DNA of 21,115 nt, from positions 1 through 21,115 of the IMG/VR virus record IMGVR_UViG_3300020215_000152; one strand, given 5' to 3'. Position 1 is the first letter of the stretch. Each line of letters starts with the position of its first letter. This document shows positions 2,863 to 4,883 of this stretch, in pieces. This stretch comes from a virus. The notes under the pieces were generated by a model. The model saw only the letters and a program-made list of their open reading frames with translations, did not search any database and had not been told where the DNA came from. The position numbers and the translations under genes were made by a program.

Positions 2863-3037
2863 TCTGCTGCTAGTCGACCTGCCGACGGTCCGAGAGGACG
2901 AGGCGCGCGAACTGTTGGGGACGTTCGAACGGGCGTTGGAACGGGCACAGGAACTTGAAATGGATCTCATTGACGCCCGTCAGCGGGTAACCCAGGCCCG
3001 TGAGCGAGTACTTGAACGCCTGGGGGTCAGGCTCTAG
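2849..3037 (+). CDS. Small coiled-coil protein, function unknown
   Basis: 62 residues from ATG 2849. An in-frame GTG at 2837 would add four residues, but the purine-rich AAGGCGGG lies right at that GTG and so serves the ATG better. After a short acidic N-terminus the whole chain is one strongly predicted amphipathic helix (from about EDEAR to the C-terminus) rich in Glu, Arg and Leu, typical of a coiled coil. No family is recognised. The stop TAG shares its last base with the GTG start of the next gene (TAGTG), indicating coupled translation. Confidence 0.6.
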   Translation: MNPSDLLLVDLPTVREDEARELLGTFERALERAQELEMDLIDARQRVTQARERVLERLGVRL

Positions 3038-3396
3038 TGGCCCGCGGCCTGGCGGCGTCGGAGTTACTTAGACGCGCCAGGGAGCTGATCCGGGAGAAAG
3101 GATTGGCCAAGGGCAACCGCCCGACCGTAGCGCTGGGGTCGATGGCCGACATGATGTGGTGGGGGCGGGCTCGCGCATGCCTGGAATGGGCGGCGTATGA
3201 GACAGGACGGAAGGCCATAGCGCTTGACGGCGGGTGGTCAAGGCCTCCGGACGCGGTGGCAGAGGGGATGGGGATCCTGGCGACGATGCAAATGTTTAAC
3301 AAGGCAATCGAGGTGGCCGAGACAATCGAGCTAGCAGAGGAAGAAGAGAAAGCGGCGGCAAAGAGGCCGAAGAGGGCAAAGAAGAATGCAACCTGA
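3037..3396 (+). CDS. Hypothetical protein with charged C-terminal tail
   Basis: 119 residues with a GTG start in a TAGTG overlap. Residues 1-100 look folded and mostly helical (SELLRRARELIREKG; MWWGRARACLEWAAYE). The last 20 residues are a Glu run followed by a Lys/Arg/Ala-rich tail, suggesting nucleic-acid or protein contact through a flexible end. I do not recognise a family or catalytic motif. The 3' end overlaps the 34-residue membrane peptide gene by 11 bp. Gene status rests on length, coupling and the absence of any better frame. Confidence 0.6.
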   Translation: MARGLAASELLRRARELIREKGLAKGNRPTVALGSMADMMWWGRARACLEWAAYETGRKAIALDGGWSRPPDAVAEGMGILATMQMFNKAIEVAETIELAEEEEKAAAKRPKRAKKNAT

Positions 3397-3490
3397 GAAC
3401 CCAGTCGTAACGGCGGTCATGATTGTCTTTGTGACCATGTGCTACGTGGGGCTGTTTTGTGTGGCGGCGTTCCTGGCGATGGTTCCATGA
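3386..3490 (+). CDS. 34-residue single-span membrane peptide
   Basis: ATG at 3386, TGA at 3488-3490. The product begins MQPENPVV, runs through one uncharged hydrophobic segment of about 22 residues (TAVMIVFVTM, then CYVGLFCVAAFLAM) and ends in VP. It fills exactly the gap between two flanking genes, overlapping the upstream gene by 11 bp and sharing an ATGA with the downstream start at 3487, which is the pattern of a real translated gene in this operon. No strong Shine-Dalgarno is present; GAAGAG at 3369-3374 is too distant, so coupling is likely. Function unknown. A host membrane or lysis-related role is only a guess. Confidence 0.55.
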   Translation: MQPENPVVTAVMIVFVTMCYVGLFCVAAFLAMVP

Positions 3491-4185
3491 AACTGGGCGC
3501 CCAAGACGCCATCCAGCGAGTCCTCCGGGCGCAGCGGGCGCAGCGAACGACTCACGATGAATTGGTCCGATGCCTATCGGCGGCGCTGAAGCCAGGCGGG
3601 TCCGTCCGCTGGGTGCATGTACGGCGGGCGCTGTTCCTGGCCGGACACGGGCGGGCGAAGTCCCATGCGATAGCGTTGGCCATATACGAGGCCTTCCCGG
3701 ACGCGCGTCTGTCGCGGGAGGGTACGCGCCAGAGAGGACCGCGCAATGTAGTGGGCGTGTCGCTGGCGTCTTCGCTGGCGGACATGCGCCGGCAATTGGC
3801 AGCCAAGTGGGAGGCCATCATGGAGCATGAGGGTATGCCCGCGGAGCTACCCGGGATTGCAACCGAGTACACCACTCCGCTGCTGCGCAATGAGCATGGC
3901 GACGACGGCCGCGCCGAGAATCAGCACACGCCCAATCGCCTAGAAAAGCTGGTCAAAGCGGTGCACGCCCGCAAGGAGTGGGCCGGGCACTACTACGGCA
4001 AAGCAACTGACTACCTGTGGTCCTGCAATTGGTCGGAGTTCCCTGACGTACACCGGGATATCTGGGCTCTGCATTGCGAGGGCGCGACGCGACAGGAGAT
4101 TGCTATCGAACTGGGGATTGGCGAGCGGGTGGTGAGAACGAGGATTGATTATCACAGGGCCCGCGCAGGGCTTGTGCACCAATGA
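3487..4185 (+). CDS. HTH-containing DNA-binding protein, function unknown
   Basis: 232 residues from ATG 3487, selected for its ATGA overlap; an in-frame upstream extension would run through the membrane peptide. The N-terminal ~75 residues are basic and helical (IQRVLRAQRAQRTTHDELVR). The middle is variable. The C-terminus (about 196-228) carries a clear helix-turn-helix (EGATRQEIAIELGIGERVVR) followed by a basic helix, as in sigma-factor region 4 or small regulators. Plausible roles are a late-gene regulator or a small-terminase-like protein; the sequence does not decide. It overlaps the methyltransferase start by 4 bp. Confidence 0.7.
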   Translation: MKLGAQDAIQRVLRAQRAQRTTHDELVRCLSAALKPGGSVRWVHVRRALFLAGHGRAKSHAIALAIYEAFPDARLSREGTRQRGPRNVVGVSLASSLADMRRQLAAKWEAIMEHEGMPAELPGIATEYTTPLLRNEHGDDGRAENQHTPNRLEKLVKAVHARKEWAGHYYGKATDYLWSCNWSEFPDVHRDIWALHCEGATRQEIAIELGIGERVVRTRIDYHRARAGLVHQ

Positions 4186-4883
4186 CCATTGGCAGTCTGT
4201 TCAGCGGGATTGGCGGGCTCGAGCTGGGACTAGAGATGTGCGGCCTTGGCCCGGTCAAATGGCAGGCCGAACAGGATCCGTACGCAAGCGCAGTGCTGGC
4301 CAAGCACTGGCCGACGGTGAAGCGATACACGGACGTAAGGGAGATTAATGAGCAAGCAGAGCGCGTCGACGTCATTTGCGGAGGATTCCCCTGTCAGGAC
4401 ATCTCGAGCGCCGGACATCGCGTCGGTATCGCCGGCCAACGATCAGGGCTTTGGAAGGAATACGCAAGGATCGTTCGTGCACTTCGACCCCGGTACGTAT
4501 TCGTGGAAAACGTCGCAGACCTCTGTCGGCGGGGAATCGACGTTGTTCTCGGGGACTTGGCCGAGATGGGGTTCGATGCGGAGTGGGGCGTGCTGGGAGC
4601 GTGCGCCGTTGGTGCCTCACATCGACGGTCCAGAGTGTTCATTCTGGCGCACTCCGACCGCGTCAGACTACAAGCGTGGATCGACGGATCAGCGGCGCTA
4701 TCCGGGGGACAAGCGGGGCCGGACGCTCAATGCGGCCTTGGCTGGATATCCGAACCCAACGTGGGTCGAGTGGTTGATGGGTTTCCCAGGCCAGTGGACC
4801 GAACTAGATGCCTCGGAAATGCCGTTGTCCCGCAGCAAGCGGCGCTTGCCTGGCGGACGCTAATCGCAAGGGCCCACCAATGA
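4182..4883 (+). CDS. DNA (cytosine-5) methyltransferase, compact form
   Basis: 233 residues. C5-MTase motifs appear in order: I FSGIGG (7-12, AdoMet binding), IV GGFPCQDIS (67-75) with catalytic C71, VI ENV (109-111), VIII HRRSRVFILA (147-156), and IX/X region RCLGNAVVPQQAA (209-221). It transfers a methyl group from AdoMet to cytosine C5, most likely to shield phage DNA from host restriction. The space for a target recognition domain, between residue 157 and about 190, is only some 35 residues, far below the ~100 or more of classic family members. From base 4348 to 4863 the same DNA encodes a second protein in the +1 frame. The start and stop are both in ATGA overlaps with neighbours. Confidence 0.93.
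   Translation: MTIGSLFSGIGGLELGLEMCGLGPVKWQAEQDPYASAVLAKHWPTVKRYTDVREINEQAERVDVICGGFPCQDISSAGHRVGIAGQRSGLWKEYARIVRALRPRYVFVENVADLCRRGIDVVLGDLAEMGFDAEWGVLGACAVGASHRRSRVFILAHSDRVRLQAWIDGSAALSGGQAGPDAQCGLGWISEPNVGRVVDGFPRPVDRTRCLGNAVVPQQAALAWRTLIARAHQ
4337..4343 (+). promoter_or_regulatory. Shine-Dalgarno of the overlapping gene inside the methyltransferase
   Basis: AAGGGAG lies 4 nt upstream of ATG 4348 and has a near-perfect match to the anti-SD. It sits within the methyltransferase codons for DVREI, yet serves the +1 frame. This argues that the overlapping frame is translated from its own start. Confidence 0.7.
4348..4863 (+). CDS. Protein encoded wholly within the methyltransferase gene in the +1 frame
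   Basis: 171 residues, ATG 4348 to TAA 4861-4863, with SD AAGGGAG. The sequence is not that of a random frame. It contains motif strings I associate with a recurrent phage protein found beside or inside C5-methyltransferase genes: MSKQSASTSFAED at the start, SWKTSQ (52-57), FSGTWPRWGSMRSG (67-80), WRTPTASDYKRG (100-111) and NPTWVEWLMGFPGQW (136-150). The Trp-rich motif is read from the same bases as the methyltransferase EPNVGRVVDGFP segment, so both frames carry conserved-looking blocks. Function unknown. A target-recognition or accessory subunit of the methyltransferase supplied in trans is a hypothesis. Sequencing frameshift is unlikely because both frames stay motif-bearing to their ends. 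Confidence 0.75.
   Translation: MSKQSASTSFAEDSPVRTSRAPDIASVSPANDQGFGRNTQGSFVHFDPGTYSWKTSQTSVGGESTLFSGTWPRWGSMRSGACWERAPLVPHIDGPECSFWRTPTASDYKRGSTDQRRYPGDKRGRTLNAALAGYPNPTWVEWLMGFPGQWTELDASEMPLSRSKRRLPGGR

Follow-up and report, generated by a model that had tools for sequence, protein, structure and literature searches.

A nested +1-frame gene in a viral C5-cytosine methyltransferase locus and its probable role as a second enzyme subunit

The question raised by this locus is whether a methyltransferase gene can contain, on the same bases, a second gene that is needed for the same enzyme. The window, i.e. the whole stretch of DNA analysed here, is a viral record of 21,115 bases (IMG/VR IMGVR_UViG_3300020215_000152). 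The first-pass annotation had placed a second gene of 171 codons at 4348-4863, inside the methyltransferase gene and in its +1 frame. These coordinates were borne out, and AAGGGAG (4337-4343), the 4-nt spacing and the ATG at 4348 were all found. All peptide blocks quoted for the +1 frame are present in the translation, and alpha EPNVGRVVDGFPRPVDR and beta NPTWVEWLMGFPGQWTEL indeed share bases (4752-4802 and 4753-4806, respectively). As judged from sequence, the best explanation with a probability of roughly 0.86 is that two nested genes on one strand specify the subunits of a heterodimeric C5-cytosine DNA methyltransferase, in which alpha would provide catalysis and beta the target-recognition domain (TRD) and motif IX.

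The features of the locus are as follows; beta lies entirely within alpha at an offset of +1.

4182..4883, + strand: alpha, C5-cytosine methyltransferase catalytic subunit, 233 aa (Pfam, phmmer, AF2/Foldseek)
4348..4863, + strand: beta, nested +1-frame protein, 171 aa, candidate TRD and motif IX subunit (profiles, shuffle tests)
4182..4185, + strand: ATGA, alpha start overlapping the stop of the upstream gene (sequence)
4197..4229, + strand: alpha motif I, LFSGIGGLELG, SAM binding (sequence)
4337..4343, + strand: Shine-Dalgarno-like AAGGGAG for beta, 4 nt (ATTA) before ATG 4348 (sequence)
4380..4406, + strand: alpha motif IV, GGFPCQDIS, with catalytic Cys71 (C71 invariant in 60 alphas)
4384-4404, + strand: beta DSPVRTS, same bases as alpha motif IV
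4483-4524, + strand: beta FDPGTYSWKTSQTS, overlapping alpha motif VI
4497..4514, + strand: alpha motif VI, VFVENV (E109 and N110 invariant in 60 alphas)
4546..4587, + strand: beta block FSGTWPRWGSMRSG (W71, P72, W74, G75, S76, M77 and G80 at least 90% conserved in 81 betas)
4614..4649, + strand: alpha motif VIII region, ASHRRSRVFILA (H147, R149 and R151 invariant in 60 alphas)
4645..4668, + strand: beta WRTPTASD block, opening a length-variable segment, the candidate TRD (variable columns of the beta alignment)
4689..4751, + strand: alpha linker between motifs VIII and X, dual-coded with the beta variable region (low pLDDT, low conservation)
4752-4802, + strand: alpha EPNVGRVVDGFPRPVDR, same bases as the assigned beta motif IX
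4753..4806, + strand: assigned beta motif IX, NPTWVEWLMGFPGQWTEL (IX-then-X order in split and single-chain relatives)
4809..4844, + strand: alpha motif X, CLGNAVVPQQAA (G212 and N213 nearly invariant in 60 alphas)
4880..4883, + strand: ATGA, alpha stop overlapping the start of the next gene (sequence)

A catalytic protein and the start of the nested frame

Alpha has motifs I-VIII and X of a C5-cytosine methyltransferase: motif I, the PC of motif IV, the ENV of motif VI and the Arg of motif VIII are all present, and among 60 alpha homologues P70 is invariant like C71, E109, N110, R149 and R151. However, the match to Pfam PF00145 (E 7e-40) covers only profile positions 1-163 of 324, and phmmer aligns alpha with M.HhaI over residues 16-178 of 327 only, ending at motif VIII. 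The AF2 model of alpha (pLDDT 84.5, pTM 0.80), whose best Foldseek match is M.HhaI, has a confident large domain, and its confidence drops precisely in the interval from motif VIII to motif X, with a pLDDT of 44-63 around residues 161-210 and below 50 at 178-200. The TRD and motif IX, which in monomeric enzymes lie between motifs VIII and X, are absent from alpha, where a low-confidence linker of ~45 residues is found in their place. The earlier statement that frame 0 keeps all C5 methyltransferase motifs thus stood for motifs I, IV, VI, VIII and X, but not for the TRD and a canonical motif IX. In C5 methyltransferases, motif IX supports the TRD.

A TAA at 4336-4338 lies in the beta frame just upstream of ATG 4348, which is therefore the first usable beta start. 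This ATG and a Shine-Dalgarno-like sequence are kept in the closest relatives L084, L085 and L089 (GAGGGA and GAGAG at the equivalent site in L084/L085 and L089), so that the start site proposed at first pass is conserved among the closest homologues. The same observation bears on the idea that ribosomes translating alpha enter the +1 frame by programmed frameshifting, so that the product is an alpha(I-VIII)-beta(TRD-IX) fusion instead of an independently initiated protein. Frameshifts, real or from sequencing, do join alpha and beta parts in L195, L244, L249 and Ochi17, but their break points vary between loci, the fusion product would be without motif X, and in many relatives beta is open from near the alpha start, so that its N-terminal part would duplicate alpha sequence. 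With a Shine-Dalgarno sequence and an ATG conserved directly after the in-frame stop, a programmed frameshift product was rejected as very unlikely, and beta would instead be translated from its own internal ATG.

Several relatives are interrupted, shifted or extended. In Mycobacterium phage Ochi17 (L002, 1423-2182) an indel after motif VI splits alpha into two ORFs and the frames are exchanged, the beta N-terminus being joined with the alpha C-terminus; the annotation calls each half a DNA methyltransferase, and the pattern recurs in Llama, Seabastian, Modragons and others. This type of break reflects either real decay or frameshifting. In the E. coli PCP07014 prophage (L230, 2995-3772) both subunits are interrupted at one spot by stops within 7 bases, a TGA in alpha at 3358-3360 and a TAG in beta at 3362-3364. 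A one-frame shift within alpha fuses alpha and beta parts in one ORF in L244, L249, L195 and L127, which could be due to sequencing error, decay or recoding. Furthermore, in L162 (2872-4695) and L217 (2830-4650) a beta frame of 607-608 aa runs on without a stop into a DUF3631 domain (E about 1e-60). These may be beta-DUF3631 fusions, but internal ATGs follow the beta part and a downstream DUF3631 gene in the same frame is equally likely.

Selection on two reading frames

To avoid selecting on beta, an independent set of loci was gathered by alpha similarity alone, and a beta-like +1 frame was found in 62 of these 63 loci. Homologous loci with a +1 frame broken by stops had been named as evidence against a second gene; the opposite is the case, the frame being open in essentially every homologue. 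In a wider count all of the 205 complete alpha ORFs examined overlap a beta, in +1 every time, although this figure is not independent because many of those loci were collected via beta.

An open +1 frame might also arise as a by-product of composition and codon usage in a conserved, GC-rich alpha. The alpha genes of 48 non-redundant alpha-selected loci were therefore compared with 300 synonymous shuffles each. The shuffles keep some beta similarity because alpha is conserved, and part of the beta similarity is a by-product of the alpha protein sequence. However, stops in the +1 frame numbered 75 against 217 expected, which is a depletion of about threefold even though many of the 75 are beta's own terminator, whereas the +2 frame of the same loci showed no deficit (448 observed, 466 expected). 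Beta similarity exceeded all 300 shuffles in 40 of the 48 loci and all but at most 5 of 300 in 46, the two exceptions being L127 with its frameshifted alpha and L138, in which no beta is recognisable. For the window itself the +1 frame stayed open over 171 codons in 8 of 1000 synonymous shuffles of alpha. With a beta profile from which the window had been left out, its +1 product scored 180.9 bits, compared with a shuffle average of 65.7 and a maximum of 117.7 bits.

Fourfold degenerate sites at identical residues were compared in 18 genes that have 35 or more alpha codons ahead of the beta start. Ahead of the beta frame their identity was 27.8% (25.3% expected), which is near saturation, and within the overlap 48.9%; opposite motif IX, at alpha residues 191-200, it reached 91.8% in a wider set of 177 alphas. 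Since codon position 3 of alpha is position 2 of beta, raised fourfold identity in the overlap is what selection on beta predicts. The conservation is confined to the overlap, and together with the shuffle test it refutes an artefact of codon bias, the probability of which we regard as close to nil. The open frame, the similarity above synonymous shuffles and the suppressed synonymous divergence in the overlap only give strong support to the proposal of two overlapping genes under dual selection. At the sequence level, these patterns demonstrate purifying selection on both frames and identify beta as a real second gene.

Identity and possible origin of the nested protein

Beta had been regarded at first pass as a hypothetical protein with no described function. 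Instead, it appears to carry the motif IX that is missing from the methyltransferase and, most probably, its TRD. Beta matches the PHROG family phrog_1008, labelled DNA methyltransferase, with E 6.5e-24 (residues 8-118 to profile positions 39-151), and the beta homologue of phage JangDynasty matches it with E 4.4e-58 in an alignment that reaches profile position 318 and includes motif X. In the mycobacteriophages Philonius and Geralt a single ORF contains the alpha profile from I to VIII, then the beta profile and then alpha motif X; the part recognised by the beta profile is LPTPxASD...FPEWMMGWPAGW (E about 2e-8), and LPTPxxxD repeats occur in the TRD region of these single-chain enzymes. In JangDynasty, Euratis and Embleya alpha stops after motif VIII and a separate beta homologue holds IX and then X. 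These split betas have an NPxFxEWMMGWPxGW-like block with motif X ~20 residues on, which is the canonical IX-X order. Moreover, in L021, L031, L081, L118 and L224, and by eye also in L063, motif X is found in the ORF with motif IX and is absent from alpha, which gives one motif X per locus.

By motif order, PHROG profiles and visible residues, the NPTWVEWLMGFPGQW block of beta is assigned as motif IX; by eye, HPRECARVMGYPDSY of M.HhaI presumably corresponds to it. On the same sequence evidence, the C-terminal half of beta and the TRD/motif IX segment of single-chain enzymes are homologous, and the variable segment of beta from GSMRSG to motif IX is most probably the TRD. This segment shares its bases with the poorly conserved alpha linker, and the conserved N-terminal beta blocks sit opposite alpha motifs IV-VIII. 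The N-terminus is longer in many relatives, where it overlaps nearly all of alpha, so that the window has the short form.

Beta could also be a genuine protein under selection whose gene was overprinted on that of the methyltransferase and whose job is unrelated, e.g. in counter-defence or regulation. No Pfam family was matched by beta or by the split betas with motif X, the beta profile found no C5 methyltransferase among PDB sequences but only chance matches such as cytochrome oxidase subunit 4, and JangDynasty beta matched none of these sequences. The N-terminal blocks WKTxQ and TWPRWGSM without known counterpart and the N-terminal extension of many relatives would also fit an unrelated role. 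This is nevertheless improbable, although somewhat less so than frameshifting, because single chains have the TRD/IX segment after alpha motif VIII and before motif X, motif X shifts to the beta frame exactly where alpha is without it, and alpha has neither a TRD nor a motif IX of its own. The AF2 model of beta alone is of low confidence (pLDDT 60.8, pTM 0.25), which would fit a chain that needs its partner in order to fold, without being evidence for this.

In the preferred reading of a heterodimeric methyltransferase, alpha would bind SAM, hold the catalytic Cys71 and form the large catalytic domain, and beta would bind alpha, complete the small domain with the TRD and motif IX and set the sequence specificity. 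The heterodimer may then methylate phage DNA, as its probable substrate, at a specific sequence; the simplest role of this would be to protect or mark that DNA. If this is true, catalysis and specificity are located in separate chains that are read from the same bases and mostly annotated as one gene, and the nested pair provides a natural split C5 methyltransferase. Recorded "complete" alpha methyltransferases would probably be inactive or non-specific if cloned alone. It would also explain the phage families phrog_1008, 26627, 27243 and 35493, which are mislabelled or listed as of unknown function.

The series of a single chain, a partly overlapping split with X in beta and a fully nested pair with X in alpha suggests an origin by a frame change between IX and X. 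The ancestor would have been a split alpha(I-VIII)/beta(TRD-IX-X) methyltransferase, in which the frame change let motif X fall into the alpha frame; alpha would then have to extend across the entire beta gene as far as motif X, and the two frames would become locked. We give even odds to the view that the nested pair is a stable, ancient architecture that arose from a split enzyme in this way and spread in phages and bacteria and in at least some archaea. The intermediates offer material for the study of how overlapping genes originate.

Distribution and comparison with known systems

Searches with beta by tblastn found 116 phage records at E<1e-3 and 208 viral-contig stretches with relatives, as well as relatives on plasmids of Leptospira, cyanobacteria and a methanogen and on chromosomes from many bacterial phyla and one archaeal MAG. 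Among 398 sampled genomes of Pseudomonadota, a beta match at E<1e-10 occurs in 19, and every locus read from these genomes has a beta-like frame that overlaps with an alpha-like one. The nested arrangement thus occurs widely, in phages and bacteria as well as in at least some archaea, and is usually annotated as a single gene. Where the genes overlap partly, both are named DNA methylase in many actinobacteriophage records; for nested pairs most records list alpha alone, so that the pair, present across many phyla, has been overlooked by most annotations examined.

Some loci contain additional copies of the arrangement or of its parts. The E. coli PT62 prophage (L229) has two different C5 methyltransferase genes, at 1-1023 and 2995-3732, each with a nested +1 beta, and its annotation covers only the two alphas. 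Philonius and Geralt (L254 and L255) have, in addition to the in-frame TRD-IX-X, a nested +1 ORF of 172 aa at 1171-1686, in which beta blocks are recognised (E about 2e-20) but that of motif IX is missing.

To our knowledge, prokaryotes only rarely have one gene wholly inside another on the same strand with both products conserved and coupled in one enzymatic function. Literature searches, which covered papers outside subscription, returned no description of the nested family. New here are the breadth of occurrence, the dual-coding evidence and the series of intermediates, whereas the kind of enzyme is already known.

A second protein read out of frame within a phage methylase gene is also known from ShiLan, where a hidden HNH endonuclease is a homing insertion (PMC11855218). 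Unlike this nuclease, the window beta is a proposed enzyme subunit; it has no HNH match and is not an insertion, and a hidden homing endonuclease of this type was rejected. Related pairs occur in actinobacteriophages, e.g. gp6/gp5 of JangDynasty and gp33/gp34 of Euratis, in which alpha and beta are homologous to those of the window (beta profile E 9e-30 for JangDynasty), beta is likewise in the +1 frame and both genes are annotated as DNA methylase. In contrast to the window, these genes overlap only partly, IX and X are contiguous in beta and alpha ends at motif VIII. M.AquI (CYCGRG) is the nearest partly overlapping split form. It also has two subunits, with motifs I-VIII in AquI alpha, but its small subunit comprises part of the variable region together with IX and X, whereas the window genes are nested and X is kept in alpha; an M.AquI-type small subunit with motif X is found only in relatives such as L252.

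M.EcoHK31I (YGGCCR) is part of a restriction-modification system, and there too the gene for beta (~176 aa) lies within the alpha gene in a different reading frame. The window resembles it in this nesting of the small-subunit gene. In M.EcoHK31I the larger subunit contains motifs I-VIII and X and is reported to include the predicted TRD, and motif IX belongs to the smaller polypeptide (PMC3404938). The same distribution of motifs I-VIII and X in alpha and of motif IX in a separate small polypeptide is seen in the window, a likeness of motif layout. Unlike M.EcoHK31I, the window alpha with its 233 aa has no room for a TRD, which is assigned here to beta. By this analogy, the best explanation is that the window pair works like M.EcoHK31I as a two-polypeptide C5 methyltransferase.
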